Source: Amycolatopsis thermalba (lineage in GTDB: Bacteria > Actinomycetota > Actinomycetes > Mycobacteriales > Pseudonocardiaceae). From it: DNA of 64,000 nucleotides. This document shows, in pieces, positions 3,132 through 9,976 of the stretch. The stretch's first letter is position 1. Every line of letters begins with the position of its first letter. Position numbers and translations under genes: made by a program. Below the pieces are notes generated by a model. It had not been told where the DNA came from and made no database searches. It worked only from the letters and a program-made list of their open reading frames with translations. The stretch lies in contig NZ_PQHW01000015.1 in assembly GCF_003385215.1 (NCBI RefSeq), forward strand, positions 1 to 64,000. The letters run 5' to 3'.

Positions 3132-3536
3132 ATGACGCCTGGCGAACTCAAACGACTGTGCCTGTCCCTGCCGGGTGCGCGCGAGGAGTTCCCGTTCGGC
3201 GAGGCCAACAGCGTCTTCAAGGTCGCGGGCAAGATGTTCGCCCTCAGCCCGCTGGAGTCGACGCCGCTGCGGATCAGCCTGAAGTGCGACCCGGACCTCG
3301 CGGTGCAGCTGCGCCGCGACCACCCCGCGATCACCGCCGGCTACCACCTCAACAAGCGGCACTGGAACACCGTCGTGCTGGACGGCTCGGTGCCCGAGGA
3401 CCTGGTGCGCGAGATGATCGAGGACTCCTACGACCTGGTCGTGGCTGGGCTGCCGCGCCGGGAGCAGGAGAAACTCCAGTGGGTCGCGCTCGGCCAGGAG
3501 AAGGCGCCCCGCGGACCCACTAACCTACGCCGGTGA
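3132..3536 (+). CDS. MmcQ/YjbR family protein
   Basis: Small CyaY-like fold protein of 134 aa, full length for the MmcQ/YjbR family. It shows the family start ELKRLCLSLPGAREEFPFG and the central KCDPDLAVQLR and GYHLNKRHWNTV segments. These proteins are often annotated as DNA-binding, but their role is not established. TAGCCT at 3120-3125 lies 6 nt before the ATG, so it is probably leaderless. The stop overlaps the GTG start of the SARP regulator (GTGA), implying coupling. Confidence 0.82.
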   Translation: MTPGELKRLCLSLPGAREEFPFGEANSVFKVAGKMFALSPLESTPLRISLKCDPDLAVQLRRDHPAITAGYHLNKRHWNTVVLDGSVPEDLVREMIEDSYDLVVAGLPRREQEKLQWVALGQEKAPRGPTNLRR

Positions 3537-6500
3537 CCGTCGAGCTGAGCCTGCTGTCGCACGTCGCCTGCCGCGGGCGGGAGATCACCGCGCCCCGGTT
3601 GCGGAACCTCCTCGCGCTGCTCGCCGCCGACCTGACCACCGGCTGCGGCACGGGCCGGCTCGTCGGCGGGCTGTGGCCGGACGAGCAGCCCGAGAACCCG
3701 GTGAAGGCGCTGCAGATCCTCGTCTCGCGCGCCCGCTCCCAGCTCGGCGCGGACCTGATCGCCAGCACGCCCACCGGCTACCGCCTCACCCTCGAACCCG
3801 CCCAGGTCGACGCCGCGGCGCTGCTCCAGCACGCCTCCGCCGCCCGCACCGAGGATCCGGCGGCCGCGCTCGCCGAGGCGGACGCAGGGCTCGCCCTGTG
3901 GGACGGCTCCGCCGACGACGGCCTGGACCCGCTGTCCACCCTGCGCCGCGAACGGCAGTCCGCCCACCGCTTCCTGGTCCGGGCCCGCGGGCTGGCGCTG
4001 TCCCGGCTGGGCCGCCACGCCGAGGCGCTCGATCCGCTCACCGCCGCCGCGAGAGACCGGCCGCGGGACGAGGAAGTCCTGCTGGAACTGCTGCGGTCGG
4101 AGTCCGCGACCGCCGGCCCGTCGGCGGCGCTGGCCCGGTTCGAGACCCACCGCCGCGCCCTGCGGGACGACCTCGGCACCGATCCGGGGCCGGAACTGCT
4201 GTCCTGGCAACGGGAAACGCTCGCCGGCGAGCAGCCCGTGGTCCGGCACGGCATCCCGCACGACCCCAACCCGCTGCTCGGCCGCGCGGACGACATCGCG
4301 GCGATCACGCACCTGCTGCGCCGCTCCCGGGTCACCTCGATCGTCGGTCCCGGCGGGCTGGGCAAGACCCGTCTCGCCCACGCGGTCGGCCGGGCCGCCG
4401 AACAACCGCTCGTCCACTTCGTCGCGCTGGCCGGCGTCCGCGCCGACGAGGACGTCGCCGGCCGCGTCGCCACCGCGCTCGGGTTCGGCGGGGCGCGCCG
4501 CACGCCCGGCCCGCGCCCGCCGGACGACCTGACCGGCATCGCCGAGGTCCTCGGCGCCGCACCGGCGCTGCTGATCCTGGACAACTGCGAGCAGGTCCTC
4601 GACGGCGTCGCCGAGCTGGTCGGGGCCCTGGTGTCGATGACCCGCGACGTGCGCGTGCTGACCACCAGCCGCGCACCGCTGGGGCTGTCGTCGGAGTCGG
4701 TGTACCCGCTGCCGGAGCTGGACCTGGACACCACGATCGAGCTGTTCACCCAGCGCGCCCGGGCCGCGCGGCCGGACGCGGACCTGCCCGCGGACGTCGT
4801 GACCGGCCTGTGCCGTCACCTCGACGGCCTGCCGCTGGCGGTGGAACTGGCCGCGGCGCGGGTGCGGGTGCTGTCCGTCCCCGAGATCGCCCGGCGCCTG
4901 TCCGACCGGTTCGCGCTGCTGCGCGGCGGCCCACGCGACCGGCCTCAGCGGCACCGCACGCTGCAGGCCGTCGTCGACTGGAGCTGGCACCTCCTCGACG
5001 AGCACGCGCAGGCGGCGATGCGCACGCTGTCGGTGTTCCCGGGCGGGTTCACCGAGGACGCCGCCCGGCACCTGCTGGGCGGCCACGACACCCTCGACGT
5101 CCTCGGTGAGCTGTCCGGCCAGTCGCTGCTCAAGGTCGTCGACACCCCGGTCGGCACCCGGTTCCGGATGCTGGAGACGGTGCGCGAGTTCAGCGCCGCC
5201 CGCCTCGCCGAAGCCGGCGCGACCGCGCGCGTCACCGAAGATTTCCTCGCCTGGGCGCGGGATTTCGGTCTGGCGCACCACGAATCGGTGTTCGGCGCCG
5301 ACCCGTACACGGCGAGCGAACGGATCCGCGCCGAGCAGGACAACCTCGTGACGGCGATGCGGCTGGGCATCGAGCGCGGGGACGGCCCGACGGTCGCGGC
5401 CACGGCGGCGGCGCTGGGCGCGCTGTGGACGGCCGACTCCAACTACTCCCGCCTGGCCGCGCTCACCACGGACGTGCCCGCGGTGCTCGCGCACTTCCAC
5501 CCGAAACCGGAGTTCGTCGAGGTGACCCGCACCGCGGCGACCGTGTGCGTCACCGCGACCTTCATGCTCCAGGGCCCTCGCGCGGTGCGGTCGCTGCTCG
5601 TCCTGCGGCGGCTGCCCGAAGCGCCGCCGACCACGCTGATCCGGGCGCTGGCCACGGTGCTGGCCCGGTTCCCGGAGATCACGCGGTCCGGTCGCCGCGC
5701 GCTGGACGCCCTGTGCGAGAGCGAGCAGCCGCTGCTCGCCTACGTCGCGCGCGGCGTGGACAGCTACTGGTGGGAGACCGACGGCGACACCGCTCGCGCC
5801 CTCGCGTCGGCGCTGCGGATGCTGGACGCCGCCGAGGTTCCGGACGCGCCCTGGCTGCGGCTGATGGCGCGCGCCCGGCTCGGCGAGCTGCACCTGCAGC
5901 GGGGCGACGCCGGGGAGGCCACCCGGCACCTGAGCGCGGCGATGCGGCTGCTGCAGGATCTCGCGCCCTGGCCGGACACGATCGGCATCCGGTGGGGTCT
6001 CATGCTCGCCCGCCGCCAGGCCGGCGCGGTCGACGAGGCCGAACGCTGGCTCACCCGGTCCAGCCCGTCCACTGTGGACGACCGCTTCGACGTCGTCACG
6101 TTCGACCTCGGGGTGCGGGCGGAGATCGCGCTCGCCCGCAACGAGGTCGAGCACGGGCTGGCGCTGTGGCGGCAGGCGGTCGCCCGGCAGCGCGACAACG
6201 GCGTGCTGCCCCTGCGCGAAGCGCCCGGCCTGGACTCGTGGACGCTGGAGCTGATCTCGGTGACGGTGATCGCGCACGCGCAGCACGGCCGGCTCGACCT
6301 GGTCGCCGACCTCGTCGCCGAACTCCCCGCGCTGGTGCCGCCGCTGTTCAGCGAGAGCGCGGCGAAACTGCCCGCCTACCTGATCGGGATGGCGGTGCGC
6401 GGAACGGTCCTGCTCGCGCTGGGCGTGCTGGCGCTGGACCGCGGCGACCCCGCCGGGGTGCGGATGGTGGCGCTGGCCGAGCGGCTGGGTTTCCTGCGGA

Positions 6501-6658
6501 ACTTCCAGCCGACGATGTCGCCGGCCGGGATCCGGGCCGCGGCCGAGAACGCCGACGGGCCGGCGTACGCCGACGCGGTGTCGGAGTACGCCGGCCTGGG
6601 CCCGGACGAGCTGCGCCTGGCGGCGCTGGAGCTGGTCAGCGAGTCGGTTCGCGGTTGA
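3533..6658 (+). CDS. AfsR/SARP-family regulator (BTAD, NB-ARC ATPase)
   Basis: Large STAND-type activator of 1041 aa. Residues 10-85 form an OmpR-like winged helix and 92-235 a BTAD domain. An NB-ARC ATPase follows, with Walker A GPGGLGKT at 272-279 and Walker B LLILDNCEQ at 346-354; the C-terminal half is helical and TPR-like. Such proteins activate antibiotic or export genes by binding direct repeats. It starts at GTG inside the previous stop, and TAACCT at 3521-3526 could give an internal leaderless promoter. Its 3' end overlaps the convergent exporter by 23 bp, and matching direct repeats lie before that exporter, its likely target. Confidence 0.9.
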   Translation: MTVELSLLSHVACRGREITAPRLRNLLALLAADLTTGCGTGRLVGGLWPDEQPENPVKALQILVSRARSQLGADLIASTPTGYRLTLEPAQVDAAALLQHASAARTEDPAAALAEADAGLALWDGSADDGLDPLSTLRRERQSAHRFLVRARGLALSRLGRHAEALDPLTAAARDRPRDEEVLLELLRSESATAGPSAALARFETHRRALRDDLGTDPGPELLSWQRETLAGEQPVVRHGIPHDPNPLLGRADDIAAITHLLRRSRVTSIVGPGGLGKTRLAHAVGRAAEQPLVHFVALAGVRADEDVAGRVATALGFGGARRTPGPRPPDDLTGIAEVLGAAPALLILDNCEQVLDGVAELVGALVSMTRDVRVLTTSRAPLGLSSESVYPLPELDLDTTIELFTQRARAARPDADLPADVVTGLCRHLDGLPLAVELAAARVRVLSVPEIARRLSDRFALLRGGPRDRPQRHRTLQAVVDWSWHLLDEHAQAAMRTLSVFPGGFTEDAARHLLGGHDTLDVLGELSGQSLLKVVDTPVGTRFRMLETVREFSAARLAEAGATARVTEDFLAWARDFGLAHHESVFGADPYTASERIRAEQDNLVTAMRLGIERGDGPTVAATAAALGALWTADSNYSRLAALTTDVPAVLAHFHPKPEFVEVTRTAATVCVTATFMLQGPRAVRSLLVLRRLPEAPPTTLIRALATVLARFPEITRSGRRALDALCESEQPLLAYVARGVDSYWWETDGDTARALASALRMLDAAEVPDAPWLRLMARARLGELHLQRGDAGEATRHLSAAMRLLQDLAPWPDTIGIRWGLMLARRQAGAVDEAERWLTRSSPSTVDDRFDVVTFDLGVRAEIALARNEVEHGLALWRQAVARQRDNGVLPLREAPGLDSWTLELISVTVIAHAQHGRLDLVADLVAELPALVPPLFSESAAKLPAYLIGMAVRGTVLLALGVLALDRGDPAGVRMVALAERLGFLRNFQPTMSPAGIRAAAENADGPAYADAVSEYAGLGPDELRLAALELVSESVRG

Positions 6659-7415
6659 ACAGGGCCTTCGCCCACACGTAGCCGAGCAGGGCGATGCCCA
6701 CCCCCCAGCCGACCGCGGCCCAGCCGTACCAGCCGATCGGCGTGCCGGCGAGCAGACCACGCAGGGTCTCGATGACCGCGGTGAACGGCTGGTACTCGGC
6801 GAACCAGCGGATGCCCGACGGCATCGAGTCCAGGGGCACGAAGGCGCTGGACAGGAACGGCAGCAGCAACGTCATCGGCATCACGATGTTGCTCGCCCCC
6901 TCGACCGTCTTGGAGAGCTGGCCGAGCGCGGCGGAGAACCAGCTGAGGCCGAGCGTGAGCAGCAGCAGGACGGCGGTCACGAGCAGCCAGTCCCCGATCC
7001 CGGCCGAGGTGCGGAAGCCCAGCAGCAGGGACACGCCGAGGACGATCAGCAGGCTCGCCACGGCCTGGATCACGTTGCCCAGGACGTGTCCGGTGAGGAC
7101 GGACGCGCGGGCGATCGCCATGGTGCGGAAGCGGGCGACGATGCCCTCGGTCAGGTCGGAGCAGATCGCCACGGCGACCGGCATCGTGGCCGATCCGACG
7201 GTGAGCAGCAGCATTCCGGGCACCAGGTAGGCGAGGTAGTCACCGCTGGCCGGCCTCCCGGTGAGGCCGGCGCCGATCGCGCCGCCGAAGACGTAGTTGA
7301 ACAGCAGGAGCATGAGGATCGGCATCGCGGCGACGCTCAGCGTCATCGACGGGTAGCGCAGCGCGTGGCGGAGGTTGCGCCGCAGCATGGTGGCGGAGTC
7401 GGTGAGCGCGGGCAT
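6636..7415 (-). CDS. ABC-2 type permease (DrrB-like)
   Basis: Membrane subunit of an ABC exporter, 259 aa with about six transmembrane helices and the ABC-2 family pattern (FGGAIGAGL region near the N-terminus, PMTLLLPFLSSAFVP late). Its ATG at 7415 overlaps the stop of the ATPase gene (ATGA), so the two are translationally coupled. The pair resembles DrrAB daunorubicin exporters. The 3' end overlaps the convergent SARP gene by 23 bp. The substrate is unknown; a hydrophobic drug or self-made metabolite is the family expectation. Confidence 0.88.
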   Translation of the reverse strand: MPALTDSATMLRRNLRHALRYPSMTLSVAAMPILMLLLFNYVFGGAIGAGLTGRPASGDYLAYLVPGMLLLTVGSATMPVAVAICSDLTEGIVARFRTMAIARASVLTGHVLGNVIQAVASLLIVLGVSLLLGFRTSAGIGDWLLVTAVLLLLTLGLSWFSAALGQLSKTVEGASNIVMPMTLLLPFLSSAFVPLDSMPSGIRWFAEYQPFTAVIETLRGLLAGTPIGWYGWAAVGWGVGIALLGYVWAKALFNREPTR

Positions 7416-8374
7416 CAGCGGGAAACCTTCTCTTCGGTGGGGTGGCCGGTCAGGGCGAAGAAGACGTCGTCCAGGTCGGGCGTGTGCACGGCGAGGCCTT
7501 CGGGCTCGATGCCGGCGTGGTCCATGCGGTCGAGCAGCGCACGCAGCGACCGGACCCCGCCGTCGCTGGGGATCTGCAGGGTGAGGGCCTCGTCGTCGCG
7601 GGAGACCTCGCCGAACGTGCGGGCGGCCAGGTCGAGGGTCGGGGCGTCGGCGAAGCGCAGTTCGACGTGCCCGCCGGGGATGCGGCGCTTGAGTTCCGCC
7701 GGGCTGCCCTCGGCGACGAGCGCGCCGTGGTCGAGCACCGCGATGCGGTCGGCCAGCTCGTCGGCCTCCTCCAGGTACTGGGTGGTGAGGAAGACGGTGA
7801 CGCCGCGGCCGACGAGGTCGCGGATGATGTCCCACATGGTGTGGCGGCTGCGCGGGTCGAGCCCGGTGGTCGGCTCGTCGAGGAAGATGATGCGCGGCTC
7901 GCCGACCAGGCTCATCGCGAGGTCCAGCCGTCGCCGCATGCCACCGGAGTAGACGGCGGCGAGTTTCTTGCTCGCCTCGACCAGGTCGAAGCGTTCCAGG
8001 AGGTCCGCGGCCCGGCGGCGGCCCTCGGCCTTGGGCAGGTGGTGCAGGTCGGCCATCAGCCGGAGGTTCTCCTCGCCGGTGAGCTTGTTGTCGACGGCGG
8101 AGAACTGGCCGGTGACGCCGATGGCGGCGCGGACCTGCCCGGCTTGGGCGACGAGGTCGTGCCCGGCGATGCGGGCGCTGCCGGAGTCGGCCCGCAGGTA
8201 GGTCGACAGGATCTGGACCATGGTCGTCTTGCCCGCGCCGTTGGGCCCGAGCAGGGCGAAGATCGAGCCGGCCGGGATGCGCAGATCGATCCCGCCGAGC
8301 ACGACCTTGTCCCCGAACGCCTTGCGCAACCCGGCGACCTCGATGGCCGGGGTGGTCGTGGTGGTGGTGGTCAA
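7415..8374 (-). CDS. ABC exporter ATPase (DrrA-like)
   Basis: ABC ATPase of 319 aa. Walker A GPNGAGKTT is at 43-51, Q-loop Q90, signature YSGGMRRR at 142-149 and Walker B IIFLDE at 162-167. The H-loop position reads TTQYLEEAD, with Gln where most ABC proteins have His; this is a hallmark of the DrrA subfamily. A C-terminal DrrA-type extension follows residue 220. The start is TTG with GGAGGGGG just upstream. It powers the adjacent permease and is probably activated by the neighbouring SARP regulator. Confidence 0.9.
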   Translation of the reverse strand: MTTTTTTTPAIEVAGLRKAFGDKVVLGGIDLRIPAGSIFALLGPNGAGKTTMVQILSTYLRADSGSARIAGHDLVAQAGQVRAAIGVTGQFSAVDNKLTGEENLRLMADLHHLPKAEGRRRAADLLERFDLVEASKKLAAVYSGGMRRRLDLAMSLVGEPRIIFLDEPTTGLDPRSRHTMWDIIRDLVGRGVTVFLTTQYLEEADELADRIAVLDHGALVAEGSPAELKRRIPGGHVELRFADAPTLDLAARTFGEVSRDDEALTLQIPSDGGVRSLRALLDRMDHAGIEPEGLAVHTPDLDDVFFALTGHPTEEKVSR

Positions 8375-8410: not shown

Positions 8411-8475
8411 AGCATCGGAGGAGGCGGCTTCAGGCCGGCTTCACCACGGTTTCAGGGGTGCCGGCGGCGGTTTCA
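8411..8475 (-). promoter_or_regulatory. SARP-type direct repeats before the ABC exporter
   Basis: On the minus strand, heptamers TGAARCC occur at 8475-8469, 8454-8448, 8443-8437 and 8432-8426. The last three are spaced exactly 11 bp apart and the first is 21 bp before them. Nine nt after the last repeat comes GATGCT (8416-8411), a possible -10. This is the geometry known for SARP activators. Confidence 0.7.
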
Positions 8476-8508: not shown

Positions 8509-8536
8509 GGGGCCCGTCCCCCCGAGGACGGGCCCC
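8509..8536 (-). terminator. terminator of the MFS gene
   Basis: Perfect 11-bp stem GGGGCCCGTCC / GGACGGGCCCC with a 6-nt loop, 16 bp beyond the MFS stop codon on the minus strand. It separates that gene from the exporter promoter region. Confidence 0.75.
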
Positions 8537-8551
8537 TTGATCCCCCTTGGG

Positions 8552-9976
8552 TCAGACTCGCGCGAGTTCCGGCTCCGGTGCGCGGCGCAGGCGCACCACA
8601 CCCGACGCCGCGATCAGCAGGCCCAGCGCGGCGATCCCGGTGATCACCGTCAGCGCCGGGGTCAAGCCGGTCAGCAGGGAGCCGCCGCCGCTGCCCGTGA
8701 GCACCGCCGTCACGATCGCGAGGCCGATCGCGCCGCCGACCTGCAGCGACGTGTTCAGCAGGCCTCCGGCCAGACCCTGCTCGTTGTCACTGATACCGGT
8801 CGTCGCCTGGATGTTCAGTGACGAGAAGGCCAGGGTGAAGCCGATGCCGAGCAGGATCATGCTCGGCAGCACCGAACCGGCGTACCCGGAGTGCTCGTCG
8901 ACCCGCAGGAACAGCACGTACGCGATCACGTGCGCCAGCACGCCACCCAGGATGGTGCGCGACGTGCCGACCCGCTCGATCAGCGGCTCGATCCGCGGCG
9001 AGCCGAACGCCACGATCAGCGCCGCGGGCAGGAACCCGAGCGCGGTCTCCAGCGCCGACCAGCCCAGCACGTCCTGCAGGTACAGCATCACCACGAACTG
9101 GAACCCGATGTAGGCCCCGAAGAACAGCGCCGCCCCCAGGTTGGCCCGCGCCAGCGGCCCGGAGCGCAGGATGCCCAGCCGCAGCAACGGGTGGCTGCTG
9201 CGCTTTTCGATCACCACGAACGCGGTCAGCAGCGCCACCGCGACGGCGAACGTGATCAGCGTCCGCGGCGCGGCCCAGCCGACCTCCGGCGCCTCGACGA
9301 CACCGAACACCAGCAGCAGCGAACCGGCCGCGCCGGTGATCGCGCCGGGCAGGTCGTAGCCGCCCGCCGAGTGGTCCCGTTCGTACGCCGGGACGACCTT
9401 GATCGCCGACACCAGCGCGATCAACGCGATCGGCACCGGCAGCAGGAACGTCCACCGCCAGCCGACCTCGGTCAGCAGCCCGGAGAACACCAGGCCGGCG
9501 GAGTACCCGCTGGCGCCGAACACCGCGAAGATGCTGATCGCGCGGTTGCGGGCCGGGCCCTCCTGGAACGTGGTGGTGATGATCGACAACGCGGCCGGCG
9601 CGGTGAACGCCGCCGCCAGGCCCTTGATGAACCGGCTCGCGATCAGCAGGGCGCCGTTGTCGACGAGACCGCCGAGCAGCGAGGCGACCGCGAACACGGC
9701 CACCGCGACGAGGAACACCCGCCGCCGGCCGAGCAGGTCCGCCGTGCGGCCGCCGAGCAGGAGCAACCCGCCGTAGCCGAGCACGTACCCGCTCACGACC
9801 CACTGCAGCGCGCTGGTGGACAGGCCGAGCTCGGCCTGGATGGACGGCAGCGCGACGCCGACCATCGAAACGTCGAGGGCGTCCAGGCCCACGACGGTGG
9901 ACACGGTCAGCAGCACGGCCCACAGCCGCGCGTCCCACCGTGTCGACGTGGTGGACAGGTGCGCAGGAGAAGTCAT
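8552..9976 (-). CDS. MFS drug-efflux transporter (DHA2, EmrB/QacA type)
   Basis: Proton-coupled efflux protein of 474 aa with about 14 transmembrane helices, the DHA2 layout. The motif-A loop reads GGRTADLLGRRRVF after the second helix. It is divergent from a MarR regulator; TAATCT (9989-9984) lies 7 nt before the ATG, with TTGCAT (10011-10006) 16 bp further up, so the transcript is probably leaderless. An operator palindrome covers this promoter. Expected role: MarR-controlled efflux of a toxic organic compound. Confidence 0.9.
   Translation of the reverse strand: MTSPAHLSTTSTRWDARLWAVLLTVSTVVGLDALDVSMVGVALPSIQAELGLSTSALQWVVSGYVLGYGGLLLLGGRTADLLGRRRVFLVAVAVFAVASLLGGLVDNGALLIASRFIKGLAAAFTAPAALSIITTTFQEGPARNRAISIFAVFGASGYSAGLVFSGLLTEVGWRWTFLLPVPIALIALVSAIKVVPAYERDHSAGGYDLPGAITGAAGSLLLVFGVVEAPEVGWAAPRTLITFAVAVALLTAFVVIEKRSSHPLLRLGILRSGPLARANLGAALFFGAYIGFQFVVMLYLQDVLGWSALETALGFLPAALIVAFGSPRIEPLIERVGTSRTILGGVLAHVIAYVLFLRVDEHSGYAGSVLPSMILLGIGFTLAFSSLNIQATTGISDNEQGLAGGLLNTSLQVGGAIGLAIVTAVLTGSGGGSLLTGLTPALTVITGIAALGLLIAASGVVRLRRAPEPELARV

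Follow-up and report, generated by a model that had tools for sequence, protein, structure and literature searches.

The 64-kb window, by which we mean the whole stretch of DNA analysed here, carries a regulator gene and a two-gene ABC exporter that converge tail to tail. The regulator (3533..6658, plus strand) is a large SARP of 1041 amino acids, composed of a winged helix, a BTAD, an NB-ARC/STAND ATPase, and a TPR-like C-terminal half. The exporter, encoded on the minus strand, consists of a DrrA-type ATPase (7415..8374), whose TTG start at 8374 lies behind GGAGGGGG, and an ABC-2 permease (6636..7415; Pfam ABC2_membrane, 2.3e-25), whose start overlaps the stop of the ATPase gene (TGATG) and whose 3' end overlaps that of the SARP gene, in agreement with the convergent disposition of a BTAD/NB-ARC regulator and an exporter noticed in an earlier, sequence-only reading of this DNA. 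The ATPase exceeded the drrA cutoff of TIGR01188 (324.3 vs 312.45 bits) and also matched Pfam ABC_tran; the permease, with 67.4 bits, remained below the drrB cutoff of TIGR01247 (223.05), being nonetheless an ABC-2 permease. The genes nearby encode a nitroreductase, a RidA-like protein, a hydrolase, and an MFS protein, and among the nearby genes scanned no anthracycline or other biosynthesis cluster was recognised. Since several relatives that keep the exporter and the repeat array in front of it lack the MFS gene (8552-9976) beside them, we excluded that gene from the module. A GC-rich hairpin located 3' of this upstream gene (8509..8536, minus strand; z -3.2), strong and terminator-like though without a T run, sets the array apart from the MFS transcript.

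In the SARP, the winged helix spans residues 1-90, with the recognition helix at 56-71, and the BTAD residues 94-228. Membership of the BTAD family was clear (PF03704, E 7e-19; 69.1 bits vs a cutoff of 22.1), and residues 20-232 matched AfsR (8hvr; phmmer E 2.2e-10), which match identifies an OmpR-type winged helix. The AF2 model (mean pLDDT 82) contained in that region the helices 21-32, 40-47, and 56-71 plus the wing strands 76-85, and in Foldseek its N-terminal part was aligned with the SARP domain of AfsR in the transcription complex with a TM of 0.70. The remainder of the model matched the STAND-TPR protein 6mfv (E 5.6e-10), Apaf-1, and MalT, and on the basis of these structural matches we classify the protein as a large SARP, possessing a C-terminal STAND ATPase and a TPR region; the Pfam AAA_16 and TPR matches stayed below their cutoffs. 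The P-loop, GPGGLGKT, was nearly invariant. The protein is not an AfsR orthologue, for it scored 54 bits with the AfsR equivalog NF053617, whose cutoff is 1430.

In front of the ATPase gene, four TGAARCC heptamers occur on the minus strand, with start-to-start distances of 21, 11, and 11 bp: a distal TGAAACC (8469..8475), followed after 21 bp, or some two turns of the helix, by a triplet phased at exactly 11 bp, which triplet is formed by TGAAACC (8448..8454), TGAAGCC (8437..8443), and the promoter-proximal TGAAGCC (8426..8432). A -10-like hexamer, GATGCT, lies at 8411..8416, 9 nt after the last heptamer (GCCTCCTCC). The coordinates thus bear out the heptamers, their phasing, and the candidate -10 as originally described. 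Sites for SARPs follow the rule of direct repeats spaced by 11 or 22 bp, with some 8 contacted bp in each and the last one 8 bp from the -10 (PMC10936776, PMC7040171). The phasing and the -10 distance of about 8 nt that the first reading had given for SARP/AfsR proteins agree with these sources, and the array conforms to them exactly: when the conserved 8-mer TGAARCCG is taken as the unit, the third copy ends 8 bp before the -10. Among 16 aligned promoters the spacers diverged, while the heptamers (the second of the triplet included), the phasing, and positions A2 and T6 of the -10 were constant. A sigma-70 promoter scan returned no promoter and no recognisable -35, and an Rfam scan gave no match.

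That such an array might be a functionless chance repeat or a product of tandem slippage could seem plausible from the window taken by itself. The motif is not enriched there (11 occurrences of TGAARCC vs 6.9 expected), and though a triple at 11 bp would be expected only about 8e-8 times per 64 kb, the motif had been picked post hoc. Furthermore, a blind scan for three heptamers with at least 19 of 21 pairwise matches at lags of 8-20 yielded about a dozen other triples of similar scores, mostly at multiple-of-3 lags, and for this reason we placed no weight on the window statistics. As judged from the window the array appears only moderately unusual; the comparative data, instead, are compelling. 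The heptamers, the phasing, and the -10 distance have been kept across genera while the spacers diverged, and a second, unlinked array stands in front of a P450 gene, so that the probability of chance or slippage becomes practically nil and conservation rules this reading out.

Within the genus we compared 19 genomes, of which 12 have the SARP, 6 lack it, and one (G009) retains a SARP with a deleted core. The 12 SARPs, 58-100% identical and in every case convergent with the exporter, included two copies (G012 and G014) whose alignments were fragmented or fitted badly at the N-terminus. All 12 genomes possessed the site before the exporter (E <= 3.2e-9), with the triplet, its phasing, and the -10 distance preserved. 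The distal repeat was found at 21-22 bp in most close-clade genomes and was missing from the more distant members of the genus. In these latter the exporter begins with an ATG at a short distance from the -10, while in the close clade, which includes the window, it has a short leader and a ribosome site. The 6 SARP-less genomes contained only SARP paralogues of 35-40% identity and no TGAARCC array or site. In G009 the SARP was deleted between about codon 17 and codon 855 (G009:C1:5438700-5441100), and the ATPase and a P450 were both frameshifted; the two arrays were retained, and the adjoining MFS gene was intact, with 96% identity. What we observe in that genome is, in short, a coherent decay of the three genes for the SARP, the ATPase, and the P450.

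A model built from sequence only, comprising the array and the -10, was searched over the whole 7.24 Mb genome and matched exactly two places: the exporter promoter, with 48.8 bits, and C165:782-824, with 40.2 bits, the next score being 16.7. The search for further arrays that had been suggested at the outset hence produced exactly one additional site, and that site precedes an unlinked CYP105-like P450 (site and gene, C165:782-2018; PF00067), whose best PDB relatives include CYP105AS1. The exact pair TGAARCC-N4-TGAARCC occurred three times in the genome, two of them within the array of the window; the third (C163:31036), having no in-register third copy and no gene start behind it, was dismissed as fortuitous. 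The P450 promoter displays the array, 9 nt, a -10 of the CANGCT type, 6 nt, and the ATG, in that order, and since the ATG comes only 6 nt past the -10, the P450 transcript is probably leaderless. This arrangement was present in all six genomes having this P450, intact or broken.

Unlinked arrays in front of other partners were found in named genomes whose SARPs are about 50-60% identical to that of the window. In P. xinjiangensis a second array precedes a different P450 (38% identical to CYP1); in P. kujensis, where the SARP has no adjacent exporter, the array is in front of a 64% identical P450; in K. banguiense it precedes a second DrrA-type exporter, itself beside a SARP copy of its own; and in S. 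viridochromogenes an unlinked DrrA ATPase. A single other genus contributed four genomes (G094, G124, G145, and G161) in which the gene converging on that of the SARP encodes not the exporter but a P450 of a third kind, likewise lying behind an array. As separate observations, K. philippinense has a related P450 with a weaker array, and at G103:C47:58229 an array and -10 lie directly before a gene for a short secreted protein with SVRITSVSD repeats, which protein might possibly constitute a third type of target.

The scan of 249 family genomes, carried out with stricter filters, recovered 17 with a strict site, 16 of which bear the SARP, the 17th being G009 (Fisher p = 1.6e-11; outside the genus, 1.2e-4). 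The strict cutoff was reached in 16 of the 51 SARP-bearing family genomes, but since arrays from outside the genus have changed and the model responds poorly to diverged ones, the lack of a strict site in the other 35 is no evidence of its absence. Recognisable arrays were seen in 21 of 21 named loci from other genera whose SARP, belonging to the clade of the window's SARP, is 50% or more identical and has an exporter adjacent to it; in 18 of them the -10 lies 9 nt from the last heptamer and in the other 3 after a fourth, degenerate repeat, and most have an ATG at 21-22 nt. Conservation of the repeats in relatives that keep both genes, on which the first reading had staked its proposal, therefore held inside and outside the genus.

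We then analysed 61 named loci from many actinobacterial genera in which a SARP has a convergent exporter. A lag of 11 was the best three-copy repeat lag in 47.6 of the 61 exporter promoters. The corresponding figures were 4.5 for dinucleotide shuffles, 6.8 out of 57 for the regions upstream of SARP genes, and 6.2 out of 61 for the coding DNA of the ATPases; the score of the three-copy lag-11 array was below 15 in 12 of the 61 loci. The heptamers vary by clade, and so does the recognition helix: TGAANCC accompanies KA(L/V)QxxV, GCAAGG accompanies NALHTQ, TGTCAG accompanies NALQxL(V/A)SRLR, and TGTCGG accompanies GALQALVGR. The identity of the SARP DNA-binding domain was correlated with array similarity (Mantel rho 0.54; 0/2000 permutations), also when the ATPase was controlled for (partial Mantel 0.46; 0/2000 permutations), while the ATPase given the domain reached only 0.17, so that exporter identity adds little and the heptamers follow the SARP DNA-binding domain better than they follow the exporter. 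Site presence that tracks the SARP and repeat sequences that co-vary with its DNA-binding domain support the link between array and regulator that the first reading had proposed. As kinship inflates simple counts, the co-decay in G009, the unlinked targets, the replacement of partners, and the partial Mantel correlation weigh most in our judgement.

Three other ways of assigning the array have to be weighed against control by the convergent SARP. PhoP is likewise an OmpR-type winged-helix protein that binds 11-bp direct repeat units, with the consensus GTTCACC, and it is expected in nearly all actinobacteria. One plus-strand unit of the array, CTTCACC, agrees with that consensus in 6 of 7 positions, and at afsS the sites for AfsR and PhoP overlap (PMC10972967). 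The ACC of this match, however, falls partly in the spacer, whose bases varied among the 16 aligned promoters, whereas the CC of TGAARCC, outside the match, was conserved; nor did those promoters contain conserved GTTCACC units. In addition, the sites follow the SARP instead of occurring nearly everywhere, the heptamer varies with the SARP DNA-binding domain, and the only two strong sites of the genome precede the exporter and the P450, all of which makes assignment to PhoP extremely unlikely. Binding by a paralogous SARP, which we deem very unlikely, might be invoked because this same genome encodes further BTAD/NB-ARC proteins, 36-40% identical to the one in the window. Two of these proteins, nevertheless, form tail-to-tail modules with convergent exporters of their own, on C201 and C135, and these modules have other 11-bp repeats: GCTGACA/GCTGTGC/GCTGTCA (GCTGNCA-like) in the former and of the GTGTCAG type in the latter. 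Moreover, the SARP-minus genomes of the genus retain paralogues and are without a TGAARCC array.

The sign of the regulation can also be questioned, inasmuch as the medium-size SARP Atr32 was described as a negative regulator (PMC6835768), so that the window SARP might be a repressor blocking the promoter until induction. Yet the last repeat stands 8 bp in front of a weak -10, in a promoter without a recognisable -35, which is the activating position of AfsR, and in G009 the targets decayed along with the regulator, as would be expected if the latter were needed for their expression; we hence regard repression as very unlikely.

We consider it highly probable that the array is the operator through which the convergent AfsR-like STAND-SARP activates the DrrAB-like exporter and the CYP105-like P450. 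On the side of sequence, this proposal is founded on the array, its phasing and -10 distance, the conservation, the two-site regulon, the co-loss, and the domain co-variation; from these we infer the binding of the repeats by the SARP and the transcriptional activation as well as the existence of an inducer and a purpose in detoxification. SARP protomers would occupy adjacent 11-bp units, one protomer to each and all on the same face of the DNA, with the last next to the weak GATGCT, where, by analogy with AfsR, they might dock sigma region 4 and the polymerase and hold them at this -10, so that the exporter would be switched on. The same SARP would turn on the unlinked P450 by means of the second array. 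STAND proteins are switches that respond to ATP and ligand (PMC10936776), and the NB-ARC/TPR part most likely gates the activation by sensing a compound. The module could then represent an inducible response of efflux plus oxidation, and the dedicated exporter, together with the repeated P450 partners and the lack of a recognised biosynthesis cluster nearby, suggests that this response is directed at toxic compounds.

Several elements go beyond what the sequence-only reading contained: the P450 as a co-target, the general occurrence of the module, heptamers that differ by clade, and a start that is probably leaderless. We further think it rather probable that a widespread actinobacterial stress system is represented here, in which STAND-type large SARPs act as private compound sensors, each controlling, through a heptamer of its own phased at 11 bp, a convergent exporter of the DrrAB type, a P450, or both, away from biosynthesis clusters. 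Paralogous modules within one genome would then be insulated from each other because the recognition helix evolves together with the heptamer, and the SARP-DNA code could be read from such pairs. SARPs are mainly known as activators of antibiotic gene clusters, and the control proposed here would lie outside that usual setting; in the open-access literature we found no published module of SARP, exporter, and P450. A large SARP family apparently wired to efflux pumps and P450s would provide a predicted function for many unstudied BTAD/NB-ARC genes; the promoter rule—phased heptamer, 9 nt, weak -10, and often a leaderless start—may serve for finding targets; the dozens of natural helix-heptamer pairs offer a way into how SARPs select DNA; and the question of which signal is detected by the STAND part of a large SARP becomes addressable with simple promoter reporters.

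With respect to known systems, the likeness to the daunorubicin exporter DrrAB resides in the ATPase, which passes the drrA cutoff; the permease, below that of drrB, and the nearby genes scanned, among which no anthracycline cluster was recognised, set the two apart. In the atratumycin cluster, Atr32, Atr29, and Atr30 similarly combine a SARP with NB-ARC and ABC transporter genes, but Atr32 is a medium SARP within a biosynthesis cluster, reported as negative, and the part of that report available to us showed no operator or transporter control (PMC6835768). With the MalT-type STAND regulators the window protein shares the NB-ARC/STAND ATPase and the TPR-like region, as reflected in the structural matches to 6mfv and to the maltose-system regulator 8bob; its DNA binding, in contrast, would be exerted by the N-terminal SARP domain and not by a C-terminal LuxR helix-turn-helix. 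PimR and other SARP-LAL regulators also have three heptamers with 4-nt spacers before a dedicated target, the heptamer being CGGCAAG, the target a regulator within the polyene cluster, and the PimR operator not overlapping the -35 (PMC5930380). Another parallel is AfsR at the afsS promoter of S. coelicolor, where a large SARP with a winged helix, BTAD, NOD, and TPR places side-by-side protomers on 11-bp direct repeats, and 8 bp separate the 3' repeat from the suboptimal -10 hexamer CACTGT (PMC10936776). AfsR, nonetheless, is global, kinase-modulated, and served by a two-repeat box, whereas the SARP of the window has three or four TGAARCC repeats, and its partners are a convergent exporter and a P450.
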